The notes beneath the pieces are model-generated. The model made no database searches and was not told the origin of the DNA. It saw only the letters and a program-made list of their open reading frames with translations. Made by a program: the position numbers and the translations under genes. A stretch of 8,381 nt of DNA, taken from assembly GCA_018667995.1 (NCBI GenBank), contig JABIQT010000998.1, positions 1-8,381 of the forward strand, read 5' to 3'. Source of the stretch: Candidatus Latescibacterota bacterium. GTDB taxonomy: Bacteria > JAAXHH01 > JABIQT01. Positions 1,645-8,381 of this stretch are shown here, piece by piece; position 1 is the stretch's first letter, and every line of letters begins with the position of its first letter.

Positions 1645-2448
1645 ATGCCACGTCTAAAGGACGAAGTTCTTTTGTTGACAGATCAGCAACGCGAGGAGTT
1701 CGAAACCAAGGGTTTTATACGAATCCAGGCTTTCGCTGCGGATGAAGCGCGTGCCATGGAGGACGCTATGTGGACCTTTCTCCAGACCATCCACGGCATT
1801 GATCGCGAGGATCGATCGACCTGGGCCCATATCTATCCCTCGGGACTTCAGCCTCATAAAAATCATCCAGTTTTCGATCCTATCAATAGTCCGGAGCTAT
1901 TGGCGACCATTGATGAACTGATGGGAAAAGGAAAATGGGAGCCGCCTCCCCACTGGGGGCAGTTTCTCGTAACCTTTCCTGAGACAGGGAGGGTCTGGGA
2001 TGTTCCATATGAATGGCATACAGATTATGGTTTCACTGAGTCAGGAGATAAACTGTTTGGCCTGCTCGCATTGATTTACGTGTCCGACGTGCCTGAGAGG
2101 TCGGGCGGAACCGGCGTCATATCCGGATCTCATCATCTCGTAAAGCAATATGTCAGAACGCAGAACAAGCAAGCACTAGGTAAAATGAAGCGAGTGCGCA
2201 AAGCACTGCGGTCTGTAAATCCCTGGATGACAGAGTTGAACACCGAGGGTGAGCCACTTGAGCGAATTGAACGATTCATGAACCAGGATACGGAGTGTTC
2301 AGGAATCCCACTTCGAGTCGTGGACCTGTCAGGATCGCCGGGCGATATCATACTGGGACACCCCTGGCTTCTCCACTCCAGCTCACACAATTGCGGCAAG
2401 CTTCCAAGGATGATGCGCGTGCAGCGTTTGCAGGCGGTTGGACAGTGA
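1645..2448 (+). CDS. PhyH-family Fe(II)/2-oxoglutarate dioxygenase 1
   Basis: This is a non-haem iron oxygenase of the phytanoyl-CoA dioxygenase (PhyH) superfamily, which couples decarboxylation of 2-oxoglutarate to hydroxylation or oxidative dealkylation of a small substrate. In the 267-residue protein the N-terminus has the usual helix-strand entry (LTDQQREEFETKGFIRI, 11-27). The iron-binding HxD is H125-T-D127 in EWHTDYG. The GGTGVISGSHH segment at 154-164 is the conserved turn before the long insert. The distal histidine is most likely H244 in LLHSSSHN, with R255 or R258 as the 2-oxoglutarate carboxylate anchor. The intact HxD argues for hydroxylation rather than halogenation. A basic, variable stretch at about 170-215 probably shapes the substrate pocket. 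The ATG has only a weak GGA three bases upstream. It is the first gene of the plus-strand cluster, and its stop overlaps the GTG of the next gene. The substrate is unknown. Confidence 0.9.
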   Translation: MPRLKDEVLLLTDQQREEFETKGFIRIQAFAADEARAMEDAMWTFLQTIHGIDREDRSTWAHIYPSGLQPHKNHPVFDPINSPELLATIDELMGKGKWEPPPHWGQFLVTFPETGRVWDVPYEWHTDYGFTESGDKLFGLLALIYVSDVPERSGGTGVISGSHHLVKQYVRTQNKQALGKMKRVRKALRSVNPWMTELNTEGEPLERIERFMNQDTECSGIPLRVVDLSGSPGDIILGHPWLLHSSSHNCGKLPRMMRVQRLQAVGQ

Positions 2449-3500
2449 GCTCCCCTATTCCCCGATTCTACCTGACTTCTGACTATGATATATCGAGGGT
2501 CATAAAGGGCGGGTGGCAGCTTGCAGGTGGCCACGGACAAGTCCACCTGCAAGATGCACTCGAAGACATGCTGCAGTACGTCAAAGCTGGGATAACGACC
2601 TTCGACTGCGCCGACATATATACGGGCGTGGAGGAACTTATCGGAGCGTTCCTCAGGAGACATAAGCACGCATTCGGAACGGACGAACTGCCCTCGGTCC
2701 AGATCCACACGAAATATGTCCCCGACCTAAGTGCCCTCAGTCGGCTATCGAGACAGGACGTAGAGAAGGTAATTGATCGATCCCTGACACGCCTCGGACT
2801 CGACCGTCTCGACCTGGTTCAGTTTCACTGGTGGGACTATGATACTCCTCGCTATGTAGAGGCGGCTCTGCACTTAAAGGCACTTCAAGGAGCCGGCAAG
2901 ATCAGGCATATTGGCGTCACGAACTTTGATGTCATGCATCTGAAGGATATCACAGACGCGGGAGTCACCATTGTATCCAATCAGGTCCAGTACTCCGTGC
3001 TTGACCAACGCCCCGAAGGTGAAATGACGGATTTCTGTCATGAGCATGATATAGTATTACTATGCTATGGCACGCTCGCAGGTGGCTTCGTGACCGACAG
3101 CTACCGGCGCACCCCCGAACCGCGAACGCCCCACGAGAACCGGTCTCTGACAAAGTACGCGCTGATCATTGACGATACGGGCGGATGGTCAACCTTTCAG
3201 GAAACGCTCGATATATTGAGAGAAGTTGCCGACAAACACAAAGTAGACATTGCCGATGTCGCGACCCGATATGTCATGCAGAAACCTCGGGTTGCCGCTG
3301 CCATCGTCGGGTCCAGAAATGCCCGATATCTCGTCAATACCAGCAAGCTGTTTACATTCGAGTTAGACAGTGATGACCTGAGCGCCATAAGGAGGCAAGT
3401 CTCGCAGACCAATGGTCTCCTCGGCGAGGTCTACGGTATCGAGCGGATCAAAGAAGGCAAACACGCGGGCATCATGAAATACGATCTCAACAAGGACTAG
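2445..3500 (+). CDS. aldo/keto reductase 1
   Basis: This is an NAD(P)H-dependent oxidoreductase of the aldo/keto reductase (TIM-barrel) superfamily, reducing aldehydes or ketones or oxidising the matching alcohols or sugars. From the GTG at 2445 the protein is 351 residues, a normal AKR length. The catalytic tetrad is complete: D54 and Y59 in FDCADIY, K90 in IHTKYV, H128 in VQFHWWD. The cofactor-side region with IVGSRNARYL is present near the C-terminus. The open frame reaches back to 2295, but that part lies inside the dioxygenase gene and would add 50 non-homologous residues. The GTG overlaps the preceding TGA as GTGA, a classic coupling arrangement. The ribosome site is weak (GGCGG at 2433-2437), consistent with re-initiation. 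The C-terminal tail after about residue 320 is longer than in minimal AKRs. Substrate unknown; the neighbours suggest a sugar- or polyol-like compound. Confidence 0.92.
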   Translation: MSSPIPRFYLTSDYDISRVIKGGWQLAGGHGQVHLQDALEDMLQYVKAGITTFDCADIYTGVEELIGAFLRRHKHAFGTDELPSVQIHTKYVPDLSALSRLSRQDVEKVIDRSLTRLGLDRLDLVQFHWWDYDTPRYVEAALHLKALQGAGKIRHIGVTNFDVMHLKDITDAGVTIVSNQVQYSVLDQRPEGEMTDFCHEHDIVLLCYGTLAGGFVTDSYRRTPEPRTPHENRSLTKYALIIDDTGGWSTFQETLDILREVADKHKVDIADVATRYVMQKPRVAAAIVGSRNARYLVNTSKLFTFELDSDDLSAIRRQVSQTNGLLGEVYGIERIKEGKHAGIMKYDLNKD

Positions 3501-3507
3501 GCACCCT

Positions 3508-3921
3508 ATGTATATGATGAAAGGTATGACCCGCGGTGAGTTTGACGTGTACGAACTACGGGACGATGAGTTTGGACTGTATGATCTCAGGATCACTACC
3601 GTGCATCTGGATACATCCCTTCCTCTGATCTGCAACCACCCCGAAGGCTCGTTTTTTGAGCTTTCTGGCGAGAATCTGTCCCTTCCTGACGGGGGAACGA
3701 TACCCATATATCCCCTGGCGGCCGTGTTACCGATATTGCCGGCCAAACAACGCATGAATCCATCCAATGACTGGATAGAAACGGACGCCCACGTTCGATG
3801 CCCTGACCCTTGTTGCGGCGGGGCGTTTCACATCGAACGCACAGGCGTCACGGTTTTTCGTAACAGTGAAGTGAGTGGCGCTATCGGCGGACCAAATGAC
3901 AATCGGAGGAATGCACCGTGA
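3508..3921 (+). CDS. TIGR04076-like small cysteine-containing protein
   Basis: This 137-residue protein has no known biochemical role. Its core (about 25-112) follows the pattern I associate with the TIGR04076 family: a beta-rich start (YDLRITTVHL), a cysteine followed by a G-x-F strand (C42, then EGSFFELSG), P-x-Y-x-L near 66-70, a hydrophobic LPILPAKQR stretch, a DW pair at 88-89, and a CPDPCCGG motif at 98-105 leading into a final FHIER strand. C42, C98, C102 and C103 could bind a metal or be redox-active; this is inference. The family call is from memory of its motif and is only moderately sure. Several in-frame ATGs (3508, 3514, 3517, 3526) compete for the start; 3508 is the longest, with AAGGA 11 bases upstream. 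It starts seven bases after AKR 1, and its stop overlaps the GTG of PhyH 2, so it is translationally locked into the operon. Confidence 0.78.
   Translation: MYMMKGMTRGEFDVYELRDDEFGLYDLRITTVHLDTSLPLICNHPEGSFFELSGENLSLPDGGTIPIYPLAAVLPILPAKQRMNPSNDWIETDAHVRCPDPCCGGAFHIERTGVTVFRNSEVSGAIGGPNDNRRNAP
3905..3910 (+). promoter_or_regulatory. strong ribosome binding site for PhyH dioxygenase 2
   Basis: GGAGGA lies inside the 3' end of the small upstream gene, seven bases before the GTG at 3918. The near-ideal site and spacing fix the GTG as the start, in preference to the in-frame ATG at 3963. Confidence 0.75.
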
Positions 3922-4832
3922 AATACGACGCTACAAATCGCTTGTTCGACTGCGAACCGACCATGACGGATACGCAGGTGCTTGAATTCTGCAGAGATGG
4001 GTACCTGATGTTAAAGGGCGTGGTACCTCAGGAAATCAACCAACGTACCTGTGACTACCTGGAAGGCAGGATCCCGGCGAATCCTTCCTATATTCCAAAG
4101 GGACTGAATGAGCAGGACCTTGAGCGAATACGAAACTCTCATGAGCCCAGCACCATTATGCTCGAGGACTGGTATATTGAGAACGTGCTTTTGAATCCTG
4201 AGCTATGTGGTGTCCTTCGATCTCTTCTGGGGAAGCAGGTCGGACTACCCGTGCTGGTGAGCAGCCACCGCGTTGAGTGCCCCACGGAGGCCCAGGGATG
4301 GCATCATGATGCCGACCATATCTTTGGCCCCGAAGTCAACTTCGTCGAGGTCTTCTATTTTCCTCAGGATACCCCCGTGGAGCTGGGTCCCACAGAGATG
4401 GTACCGGGTTCACATATTCGTCCAACCCATGGTGATCCGTCAGAGAGTGGCGTTCCGGCAGAGGGTCCGGCGGGATCTTTCGGCATCCATCTGCAGAGCA
4501 TTCTCCATCGCAGGGGGGCTTCCACGGCAGACGGTATTCGTCACATGCTCAAATACAATTACTGGCGCACCGAGGCCCCCGTTCGAGACTGGATTGTAGA
4601 GCCCGACTTCGACTTTCAAGACGCCTACTATGGTGGCCATGGCACCGCCCGATATAATGCTCACATATTCTATTGGCTGTGTGGAAAAGGTGATCAATAT
4701 CGAATCATAGGTGGGCAAGGATGGCCGTGGAAGACGGAGAACCAGATAGGTCCTTCGTATGGATTCGGTAAGTCGGACGGTTACCTGCCCAACTGGCGTC
4801 GGGACAACTCTGATGATTATTCCTCAGACTAG
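3918..4832 (+). CDS. PhyH-family Fe(II)/2-oxoglutarate dioxygenase 2
   Basis: This is a second oxygenase of the phytanoyl-CoA dioxygenase superfamily, 304 residues, clearly different from the first. The iron-binding HxD is H129-H-D131 in GWHHDADH. GPTEMVPGSH at 157-166 is the conserved PhyH turn. The distal histidine is probably H197 in LHRRG, followed by R208 and the LKYNYWRTEAP segment typical of bacterial PhyH proteins, which supplies the 2-oxoglutarate-binding arginine. All parts of the 2-His-1-carboxylate site are therefore present, and hydroxylation or demethylation of a small molecule is expected. The tail after about residue 225 is rich in aromatic residues and glycine, and is longer than in minimal family members. 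The GTG start overlaps the upstream stop (GTGA) and has a strong GGAGGA site. Its stop is eight bases from the next start. Substrate unknown; a pathway with two consecutive oxidations, or two related substrates, is the natural inference. Confidence 0.9.
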   Translation: MKYDATNRLFDCEPTMTDTQVLEFCRDGYLMLKGVVPQEINQRTCDYLEGRIPANPSYIPKGLNEQDLERIRNSHEPSTIMLEDWYIENVLLNPELCGVLRSLLGKQVGLPVLVSSHRVECPTEAQGWHHDADHIFGPEVNFVEVFYFPQDTPVELGPTEMVPGSHIRPTHGDPSESGVPAEGPAGSFGIHLQSILHRRGASTADGIRHMLKYNYWRTEAPVRDWIVEPDFDFQDAYYGGHGTARYNAHIFYWLCGKGDQYRIIGGQGWPWKTENQIGPSYGFGKSDGYLPNWRRDNSDDYSSD

Positions 4833-4836
4833 GAGG
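4831..4836 (+). promoter_or_regulatory. ribosome binding site supporting a TTG start
   Basis: AGGAGG overlaps the TAG stop of PhyH 2 and precedes the TTG at 4841 by four bases. No ATG or GTG in the same frame lies between the upstream stop and the Rossmann glycine motif, so this site is the main evidence for initiation at TTG. Confidence 0.7.
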
Positions 4837-4840
4837 GGTT

Positions 4841-5881
4841 TTGTACGGAATCGGCATACTCGGTAATTGCTGCACACACGGTGCAGGTGCAGCGGCACAA
4901 GCGAATAACCACCCAAAGACCGACCTGATAACCGGCTTCGAGGGCCAGTCCCGCAGAGGCCATGAATTGGCAGAGGCCATGGGTGTACCGTTGGCCAGCG
5001 GGTACGATGAAGTCATCCACCATCCGGACATCCAGATCCTGATAGTCACTTCTAATCCCTGCGACAAGGCTGACCTTATCGAGAAGGCGGCAGCGGCAGG
5101 GAAAGCTATCTTCGTCAACAAACCGCTCTGTCACAGCCCCGAAGACGCAAAGCGCATCGTGCGTGCAATTGAGAAGCACGAGACGCCAGCGGTGTTCGAT
5201 GCACCCATGATCAAAGGCATTTCAGCCTACGACTGTCTACTGAAGAGGGTACGGGCAGGCGAGTTCGGTCGAATCATCAACTATCATCATAGCTTTGGCA
5301 TGCTGTTCGATCAGGATTTCCCCATCGCGAAACGGTGGCCTGAGCGATTCGATCCTCCATCCGTATCCGGAGGGGGCGAAATGACTAACATGGGCTGCTA
5401 TGCCATAGATTTTGCTCTAAGAATGCTGGGACTTCCGCTGGGGATACAGGCTCGATCGCAGACATTCTGGGAGCCCTACAGTGCATCTAATGTCGAGAAT
5501 TTCGGACAGATCCTATTGGATTATGGATCGTATTGGGCGATGCTTACTGTCGGAAAGCAAACCACTACCGAACCAAGAAGCCACCGAAATGCGTTGACGA
5601 TTGAGTTTGAGACAGGGAATATCTTTCTCGACGCTCAAGCCGGAGTCCTGATGTATAATGGAGCGTCCCTATCTCTCGATACCTTTGTGGGTAACCACCA
5701 ACCCGTTTCTGCCATGGACCAGTTGATCGCGAGTCTGGAAAAGGGCAGCTTACCTGAAAGCGATATCTACACTGCCGCCAGGGGTGTGGATGTCCTCTGT
5801 GCCGGATATCAATCAGTGATAGACGGCCAACCAGTGGACTTCCCGATGCAGGAACCTGTCAATCCCCTGTTTGAGAGATAG
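4841..5881 (+). CDS. Gfo/Idh/MocA-family oxidoreductase
   Basis: This is an NAD(P)-dependent dehydrogenase of the Gfo/Idh/MocA family, which oxidises or reduces hydroxyl groups of sugars, inositols and related compounds. The 346-residue protein has an N-terminal Rossmann fold: GIGILGNCCTHGAG at 3-16, a DEVIHHPDIQILIVTSNP stretch at 56-73, and FVNKP at 91-95, where K94 is the conserved lysine and the usual glutamate of the EKP motif is asparagine. The C-terminal alpha/beta domain contains GGGEMTNMGCYAIDFALRML around 177-196. D190 and the C186/Y187 position correspond to the family's GxHxxD catalytic region, so the usual histidine appears to be replaced by tyrosine. The start is TTG, supported by AGGAGG and by the beta strand that begins at once. 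It is tightly linked to PhyH 2 (eight bases), with the HAD gene 30 bases downstream. Substrate unknown. Confidence 0.9.
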   Translation: MYGIGILGNCCTHGAGAAAQANNHPKTDLITGFEGQSRRGHELAEAMGVPLASGYDEVIHHPDIQILIVTSNPCDKADLIEKAAAAGKAIFVNKPLCHSPEDAKRIVRAIEKHETPAVFDAPMIKGISAYDCLLKRVRAGEFGRIINYHHSFGMLFDQDFPIAKRWPERFDPPSVSGGGEMTNMGCYAIDFALRMLGLPLGIQARSQTFWEPYSASNVENFGQILLDYGSYWAMLTVGKQTTTEPRSHRNALTIEFETGNIFLDAQAGVLMYNGASLSLDTFVGNHQPVSAMDQLIASLEKGSLPESDIYTAARGVDVLCAGYQSVIDGQPVDFPMQEPVNPLFER

Positions 5882-5911
5882 TTTACGGTACCGAAAAGTC
5901 CACCCGATTCC

Positions 5912-6664
5912 ATGAAATCATCCTCAAAGAGTATACACGCGGTCTTCTTCGATCTGGATGATACACTATGCCGTGCGTCTGATGCATGGCAACTGGCAGA
6001 ACAGGAAACTTTTGACAAGTTTCTCCTGCCTCGGCCCGGCCTGACTGAACTGGACACCAGGCGAGTCTGGGAAACGGTACATCAGGATCTCTTTGAACAG
6101 TTGGACAGCGGTCTTATCACTATGGCAGAGGTCCGCGATGCCAGATTCAGACTCACCTTGAAGCAATTGGGGGTAGGCGATCTGACCTTGGCAGATGAGT
6201 TGAATCTGTTCCTTTCTACTCGGCGACTCACGCACATGAAGCCTATGGACCATGTACTGGAGGTACTCGCCAAGCTGGGCTCAAGGTACCACCTCGGGAT
6301 CATCACTAACGGGGCAGCGGATCTACATGCCGACAGTCAATACACCCTGGCCAAGCACCTGCAGCTGCTGCCGCTTATTAAAACCTTTGTGGCATCTGAC
6401 ACCATTGGCTTCCGCAAACCGGATATTCGAATTTTTCGCCATGCGCTGAATGCAGCTGGCGCTAAGCCCTGGCAAGCAGCGTTCATCGGAGACTCCCTCT
6501 CAAAAGATATCAACGGAGCCAATCGAGCGGGCATGACCAGCATACTGTTTACCCCCACTAAAGCGCACTCACGGGTCTTTGCACCCTACGAAGAACCTGA
6601 TCATATCATCCATTGTATATCGGAACTGCCCGATCTTCTGGGCCAGATCAATCGCATAACGTAG
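5912..6664 (+). CDS. HAD-superfamily (subfamily IA) phosphatase
   Basis: This is a small-molecule phosphatase of the haloacid dehalogenase superfamily, 250 residues. Motif I is FFDLDDTL with the nucleophile D14 and acid/base D16. Motif II is IITNGAAD with T132. Motif III is K169 in GFRKPD. Motif IV is FIGDSLSKDINGANRAGM with D194 and D199 binding magnesium. A helical cap lies between motifs I and II (about 20-110), as in subfamily IA enzymes such as YjjG-type nucleotidases and N-acylneuraminate-9-phosphatase. It probably dephosphorylates a sugar phosphate or nucleotide, which would suit the neighbouring sugar-type oxidoreductases, but HAD-IA enzymes are promiscuous. The ATG at 5912 is the only start close to motif I, though no good ribosome site precedes it, so expression may be low or coupled to the upstream gene. 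A 97-base gap follows. Confidence 0.9.
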   Translation: MKSSSKSIHAVFFDLDDTLCRASDAWQLAEQETFDKFLLPRPGLTELDTRRVWETVHQDLFEQLDSGLITMAEVRDARFRLTLKQLGVGDLTLADELNLFLSTRRLTHMKPMDHVLEVLAKLGSRYHLGIITNGAADLHADSQYTLAKHLQLLPLIKTFVASDTIGFRKPDIRIFRHALNAAGAKPWQAAFIGDSLSKDINGANRAGMTSILFTPTKAHSRVFAPYEEPDHIIHCISELPDLLGQINRIT

Positions 6665-6761
6665 GAACCCGTGCATTCTCGTTTCAGGACCATTGCCCGT
6701 GAACATGGGGTAGATCGTATCCAAATACCGACTCTGGCGCCTACGCCATCAAGGAGATGCC
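6665..6761 (+). promoter_or_regulatory. 97-base intergenic gap with small hairpin before the dehydratase
   Basis: This is the largest gap in the plus-strand cluster. It ends with a short perfect stem, TGGCG at 6735-6739 and CGCCA at 6744-6748 with a four-base loop, just before the ribosome site. There is no T-run after it, so it is not an intrinsic terminator. It may affect translation or mark an RNA processing point. I see no convincing promoter, but a secondary one here would split the cluster into two units. Confidence 0.3.
6751..6756 (+). promoter_or_regulatory. ribosome binding site for the GTG-started dehydratase
   Basis: AAGGAG lies five bases before the GTG at 6762 and decides that start. 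The protein N-terminus from this GTG (MKITEVRTIVTCPGRN) begins as expected for the family. Confidence 0.75.
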
Positions 6762-7949
6762 GTGAAAATCACCGAGGTACGAACCATAGTAACCTGTCCC
6801 GGCCGCAATTACGTACTTGTGAAGATATTGACCGATGAGGGTGTTTACGGTGTCGGCGAGGGATCAATGAATAGCTCCGAACCGGCCGTGGCAGCTATGA
6901 TCGAGCACTCCAGCCAATGGCTGATCGGCCAGAACCCTTTCAACATTGAAGATCTGTGGCAGATTCTGTATCGCAACACCTACTGGAGAGGTGGACCCGT
7001 TTTTCGAACAGCTCTGGGGGCACTTGACATTGCACTTTGGGACTTGAAGGCCAAGGCTCTGAATGTACCCGTATACGAGCTGCTTGGGGGCCGGGCAAGG
7101 CGGGGGGTCCTGTGCTACACCCATTCCGGCGGCGGCTCCTACGACGAAATCGTAGAAGACGTCCAGCGGTGCCAGGAAGCTGGCTTCAGGGTCATCCGAG
7201 TACAGCACGGGGGCTATGGAGGCCCGGGCATTCTGGGCCATGATCCGAATCCAATAGAGGGTTTTCCGGCAATACCTATTTTCGAGCCTGGTGGTTATCT
7301 GAGTGATACGCCGAAAATGTTCGAGCATCTGAGGATGGCTCTTGGTGATGAGGTGGAATTGTGTCATGACGTACACGAACAGCTCGGACCGACCGACGCG
7401 GCCTGGCTCGCTCGCGCTCTGGAGCCCTTCCGGTTGTATTTCCTGGAGGACCCCGTCATGCCCGAGGAGTGGGAAGGTCTTCGCCAGATACGATCCGCCT
7501 CAACTACCCGCATTGCATTAGGGGAAATCTTGTATAATCGCGAGCATATTATCCCTCTGATTACGGAACGTCTCATCGATTTTCTACGAACCCCTCCCAT
7601 GCGTATGGGAGGCTTAACCGAGGCACGAAAAATCTTCAGTGTCGCTGAAATGTACGACGTACGAACGGCATTTCATGGCGCCCAGGATATTGGACCGATT
7701 GCGCAGGCTGCATCCGTACACTTCAATCTGGCCATCCACAACATGGGTGTGCAGGAATGGGTAACGTATCCCGACGCAGCCTATGAGGTAATGCCCGGTG
7801 CGTGTACATTCAGCGAAGGACTGGCCAATCCTAATCCTGGTCCAGGCCTGGGGATCGACATTGACGAGGACCTGGCGAAGAAATACCCCTTTCAAACGGC
7901 AAGATTACCGATTTTCCGAAGGTGGGACGGCGGTATTCACAGACACTAA
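6762..7949 (+). CDS. D-mannonate-dehydratase-like enolase-superfamily enzyme (ManD/RspA type)
   Basis: This is a sugar-acid dehydratase of the enolase superfamily (mandelate racemase/ManD group), which removes water from an aldonic acid through a Mg-stabilised enolate. The 395-residue protein has the N-terminal capping domain (ITCPGRN-like start at 9-16, YWRGGPV at 74-80, ALWDLKAKAL at 91-100) and then the barrel. The metal ligands expected for ManD are D203 (in HDVHE), E229 (in LEDP) and E255 (in LGE). H205, R276, H305 (FHGAQD) and E332 (QEW) match other ManD active-site positions. Two departures are visible. The tyrosine that pairs with the arginine at R146 in characterised ManD is not at its usual spacing; only Y152 lies nearby. 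The chain also ends DGGIHRH rather than DGTxWNW, so the C-terminal tryptophan that enters the active site is missing. Activity on D-mannonate is therefore doubtful; D-gluconate or another acid sugar is possible. GTG start. Confidence 0.88.
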   Translation: MKITEVRTIVTCPGRNYVLVKILTDEGVYGVGEGSMNSSEPAVAAMIEHSSQWLIGQNPFNIEDLWQILYRNTYWRGGPVFRTALGALDIALWDLKAKALNVPVYELLGGRARRGVLCYTHSGGGSYDEIVEDVQRCQEAGFRVIRVQHGGYGGPGILGHDPNPIEGFPAIPIFEPGGYLSDTPKMFEHLRMALGDEVELCHDVHEQLGPTDAAWLARALEPFRLYFLEDPVMPEEWEGLRQIRSASTTRIALGEILYNREHIIPLITERLIDFLRTPPMRMGGLTEARKIFSVAEMYDVRTAFHGAQDIGPIAQAASVHFNLAIHNMGVQEWVTYPDAAYEVMPGACTFSEGLANPNPGPGLGIDIDEDLAKKYPFQTARLPIFRRWDGGIHRH

Positions 7950-7956
7950 GCGGAGC

Positions 7957-7963
7957 GGAGGAG
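7957..7963 (+). promoter_or_regulatory. strong ribosome binding site for aldo/keto reductase 2
   Basis: GGAGGAG ends three bases before the ATG at 7967; its GGAGG core has a spacer of five. It lies in the 17-base gap after the dehydratase stop and fixes the start of the last gene. Confidence 0.7.
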
Positions 7964-7966
7964 CAC

Positions 7967-8381
7967 ATGAATACCAGGAGACTGGGACGTACCAATCTCC
8001 AAGTAAGTACGATTGGGTTTGGAGGCGCTCGGCTTGATGAGCAGCCCGAGCACGCTACGGAAACCGTACATCGCGCATTGGAAAATGGTGTCAATTTCAT
8101 CGACACGGCACGGTATTACGGCAACAGCGAGAAATTCCTGGGGATTGCACTGAAAGGACACAGGGATGAGGTCATACTGGCCACAAAATCGCTGATAGCT
8201 ACTCCTGATATTTCCCGGCAGAGCCTCGAAACAAGTCTCTCGCTGCTCCAGCTAGACGGCGTCGACCTTCTCTATGCACATGCATGTGACAACGAAGACC
8301 GCTACGATGATCTGACGCGCAAGAACGGGATGCTCAAGACACTGGAATCCATTCGTGAGGAAGGAATCACGCGGTTTCTCG
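7967..8381 (+). CDS. aldo/keto reductase 2, cut by right edge
   Basis: This is the N-terminal 138 residues of a second aldo/keto reductase; the frame is open at the window edge. The start MNTRRLGRTNLQVSTIGFGG is the standard AKR beta-hairpin entry. The catalytic tetrad is complete: D46 and Y51 in FIDTARYYG, K74 in LATKS, H105 in YAHACD. It resembles L-glyceraldehyde-3-phosphate or aryl-alcohol-type AKRs in layout, but is too short here to place in a subfamily. It differs clearly from AKR 1, whose matching segments read FDCADIY and VQFHWWD, so it is not a recent duplicate. It follows the dehydratase by 17 bases with a strong ribosome site, so it belongs to the same transcript. The reaction is probably oxidation or reduction of the carbonyl compound made or used by the neighbouring enzymes; the substrate is unknown. 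Confidence 0.9.
   Translation, partial: MNTRRLGRTNLQVSTIGFGGARLDEQPEHATETVHRALENGVNFIDTARYYGNSEKFLGIALKGHRDEVILATKSLIATPDISRQSLETSLSLLQLDGVDLLYAHACDNEDRYDDLTRKNGMLKTLESIREEGITRFL

Follow-up and report, generated by a model that had tools for sequence, protein, structure and literature searches.

The window, an 8,381-nt stretch of DNA that corresponds to an entire contig of the host genome (G000:C314), contains eight genes for redox and sugar-acid-type enzymes that probably form an operon-like, lineage-specific cluster. Its only deeply conserved core would be a two-gene module composed of an aldo/keto reductase gene (AKR1) and the gene of a small TIGR04076 family protein. The cluster is one among many paralogue-rich stretches of a genome rich in PhyH genes. 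The useful result is the conserved AKR-TIGR04076 pair, which is present in many bacterial phyla and in a haloarchaeon and whose genes are open to testing in culturable Rhizobiales.

The eight genes occupy positions 1645-8381 on the plus strand, as determined from open reading frames combined with Pfam and NCBIfam scans. The scans confirmed the family assignments of the original prediction, which had described eight same-strand genes of an oxidative cluster, and identified the small protein it had left without a name as a TIGR04076 member. The two four-base overlaps that it had reported are both GTGA. The first gene, PhyH1 (1645-2448), encodes an oxygenase of the Fe(II)/2-oxoglutarate type. Its stop codon is overlapped at 2445-2448 by the GTG start codon of AKR1 (2445-3500; Pfam PF00248). 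AKR1 is followed by the gene for the 137-aa TIGR04076 protein (3508-3921), the putative AKR1 partner, which in turn overlaps at 3918-3921 with PhyH2 (3918-4832), encoding a second oxygenase that is kept across the order. Downstream, a Gfo/Idh/MocA oxidoreductase identified by Pfam is encoded at 4841-5881 with a TTG start codon after AGGAGGGG. The next gene (5912-6664; Pfam and NCBIfam) specifies a HAD-family phosphatase-like protein that resembles YjjG and CTE7 but scores below the cut-offs of both. It is separated by 97 bases, the widest gap between cluster genes, from the gene for a ManD-like dehydratase of the enolase superfamily (6762-7949; Pfam). The last gene, encoding a second aldo/keto reductase, AKR2 (7967-8381; Pfam), is truncated by the contig end, and none of the other contigs of the genome overlaps this end to continue it past position 8381. 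Judged by their arrangement, the eight genes look like one operon and would be transcribed together. A promoter and terminator scan of the window yielded a result similar to that for shuffled sequences and no promoter-like site on the plus strand. Upstream, two genes are located on the minus strand: a divergent GDPD gene (155-886) and a gene for a 209-aa HD-GYP-like HD-domain protein (931-1560). PhyH1 and the HD gene are unlikely to form a PhnY/PhnZ-like pair, since the latter is divergent and fits a model of the HD-GYP type.

Relatives of AKR1 with 45-62% identity occupy 80 genome loci; the phyla represented include Chloroflexota, Pseudomonadota, Bacillota, Acidobacteriota, Gemmatimonadota and Planctomycetota. 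AKR1 and TIGR04076 are both present in 77 of these 80 loci, and in the loci mapped by tblastn the TIGR04076 gene adjoins the AKR gene. Likewise, window positions 2445-3921 comprise adjacent same-strand genes of both families. When plasmids are included, the gene for the small protein precedes the AKR gene in 75 of 81 loci, and the order found in the window occurs in six. Alphaproteobacterial plasmids carry, like the window, an AKR1-like gene (about 51-54% identity) next to a TIGR04076 gene, but here the small protein comes first, opposite to the window. In the annotated plasmids of this group, the pair is accompanied by genes for a GntR regulator and an ABC transporter; in contrast to the window, PhyH genes are missing from these loci. 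A haloarchaeal plasmid harbours the pair, too. In Chloroflexota, the pair adjoins an enolase-superfamily gene in one locus (L157), and in another (L158) it lies beside a second AKR gene and an ABC transporter of the oligopeptide type, at a locus that also encodes two M24 peptidases. AKR1 has retained D54, Y59, K90 and H128, residues checked over 85 relatives that we take to fit the AKR catalytic tetrad. By sequence comparison, this widespread two-gene pair is the sole deeply conserved core of the cluster.

The closest AKR1 sequences (62%) belong to Chloroflexota. Among the 15 order-level relatives of the host that were compared, the nearest of which belongs to a different family, no orthologue of either AKR1 or the TIGR04076 protein was found, and their AKRs do not exceed 42% identity. 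Both proteins are also absent from the remaining genomes of the phylum that were examined. This absence suggests horizontal acquisition, and it is plausible that the pair entered the lineage in this way, with its nearest sequences now in Chloroflexota. In a quick tree, AKR1 groups with Chloroflexota sequences on a long branch (support 85, not starred), a placement that must be regarded as weak.

The small protein was assigned to TIGR04076 with 42.2 bits (NCBIfam cut-off 33). Across 43 sequences, 17 columns are invariant, among them C103, and C42 and C98 are nearly so; all three cysteines are kept in the window copy. At position 119, where a nearly invariant His is found in the homologues, the window copy has N119; this His is a trait observed in the present analysis and not a published criterion. 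The AlphaFold2 model of the protein has a mean pLDDT of 84. Foldseek found no match to it below E 0.001. VIA-align aligned the model with the N-terminal parts of 2we8, 2we7 and 3on5, which are presumably XdhC/CoxF-like proteins, with Z-scores of 7.4, 6.7 and 6.6 (next 3.5), where values below 8 may reflect merely a common arrangement. In sequence searches, the protein had no match to XdhC/CoxF-type proteins. An N-terminal fold of this type, as the predicted model may indicate, is a lead only. In the literature searched, TIGR04076 appears in one table entry without a characterised function (PMC8667426). It is conceivable, albeit unlikely, that the two proteins work together as an oxidoreductase system to which the small, cysteine-bearing member contributes a metal or redox function. 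In this lineage, the coupling of the pair to two iron oxygenases through gene overlaps would then have created a new oxidative route for a metabolite.

Most of the other cluster genes belong to families with large numbers of paralogues in the host genome (6.06 Mb in 1165 contigs, 85% complete). We counted 154 PhyH matches, 85 of the Gfo type and about 59 for the ManD-like protein; the AKR1 search gave 15 places. PhyH genes lie close together on 23 contigs. Some frames in the genome contain two PhyH stretches (C1151, C434). Such numbers and such PhyH groupings count in favour of an explanation in which the window is a chance pile-up of abundant paralogues that share no pathway, with AKR1 and the TIGR04076 protein alone belonging together. 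Against this explanation speak the single strand throughout, the two overlaps and the low expected number of windows this dense. Uniform placement of 314 matches in 6.06 Mb predicts about 0.005 windows with six members of the four families per 8.4 kb, a value that overstates the surprise and serves only as a guide, because PhyH genes are mildly clustered elsewhere in the genome. C314 is the richest contig for the four families among those listed, a ranking in which 16 of the 59 ManD-type places are considered. Altogether, we regard a mere pile-up as improbable. PhyH abundance has a parallel in Poribacteria, where PF05721 is found in over 1.9% of the genes, mostly with unknown function, and the set comprises 305 sequences in 193 clusters, according to the part of the study considered here (PMC3909097). 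Within that part, the poribacterial expansion resembles the one in the host with its 154 matches, but no cluster of the present type is described.

A further explanation follows the one put forward originally: a dedicated pathway in which all eight genes act on a single unusual sugar, sugar acid or cyclitol, but which would be limited to the host's family or a narrower group. The tight spacing, the two GTGA overlaps and the density of C314 are in its favour, as are the enolase-superfamily gene or second AKR gene beside the pair in Chloroflexota. The dense packing and the overlaps count towards a joint function of the full set and against our best explanation. Conserved synteny of the eight families had been chosen beforehand as a test, and the set is not shared by the 15 order-level relatives: in the neighbourhoods fetched from them, no window gene lies beside a clear counterpart of another. 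PhyH2 has orthologues with 67-75% identity in each of the 15 relatives, and a further one comes from a genome outside the order. The latter (72%; L065, G054:C111:11943-12848) is as close as those from within the order. In these 16 genomes, the PhyH2 orthologues are located apart from the other window genes, barring a weak 25% ManD-like match about 6 kb away in G001, and their neighbours vary from genus to genus. The best order-level relatives of PhyH1 reach only about 33%, and one weak HAD match is the single window-type gene beside them. Gfo has one relative (55%, in G013), which stands alone without the cluster. Within the order, the ManD-like protein finds its closest matches at about 47% identity, and the one examined is closer to 3t6c, a member of another subgroup, than to ManD. 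Finally, a profile that picks up the two PhyH proteins of the window as well as 41 frames at loci of the relatives revealed no PhyH gene near the pair in any of 85 loci. Operon-like co-expression and a redox or sugar-acid flavour remain plausible parts of the original pathway claim, whereas conservation beyond the host's own family does not support a dedicated eight-gene pathway, which we consider rather unlikely.

In the preferred explanation, a lineage-specific cluster around the AKR1-TIGR04076 module, the genes for the PhyH oxygenases, Gfo, the ManD-like protein and AKR2 would have been added around the pair from the large paralogue pools. The cluster is best read as catabolic-type. AKR1 may interconvert carbonyl and alcohol groups of a small hydroxylated metabolite, and the TIGR04076 protein with its cysteines would be the partner dedicated to it. 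The PhyH oxygenases would open C-H bonds, leaving a hydroxyl or carbonyl that Gfo might oxidise or reduce. An acid product could be dehydrated by the enzyme of the enolase superfamily, and the HAD protein may take off phosphate.

Both oxygenases pass the PF05721 gathering score of 22, PhyH1 with 35.3 and PhyH2 with 42.4 bits. A motif scan of PhyH1 revealed H125-x-D127, a distal His (244 being the likeliest) and a downstream Arg; in PhyH2, H129-x-D131, H197 and R208 are invariant among the orthologues. As far as can be judged from these motifs, both proteins keep the HxD and distal His of the iron site and the 2-oxoglutarate Arg. The original prediction had extended to O-methylated sugars. Nothing in the data shows such chemistry. 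Searches of PDB sequences retrieved no relative for PhyH2 and only a marginal ectoine-hydroxylase match for PhyH1, and the ManD-like protein misses the ManD cut-off, scoring 432 bits where 550 are needed (NCBIfam equivalog NF043051). PF05721 also includes PHYHD1 and FJS, 2'-O-methyl nucleoside demethylases, and one poribacterial enzyme of the family was reported to act on 2'-O-methyl nucleosides as well (PMC12709175). PhyH1 and PhyH2 share the family with these enzymes but did not match PHYHD1, the one of them that the comparison covered, among the PDB chains at the limits used. The ManD-like protein falls into the same enolase-superfamily subgroup as ManD, and its best PDB match is 4fi4. In the printed alignment, however, it has a YGG-type loop instead of the STYGV loop of 4fi4. 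The N-terminal motif of Gfo, GILGNCCTHGAG, is unusual for a dinucleotide-binding loop and is the same in the G013 relative.
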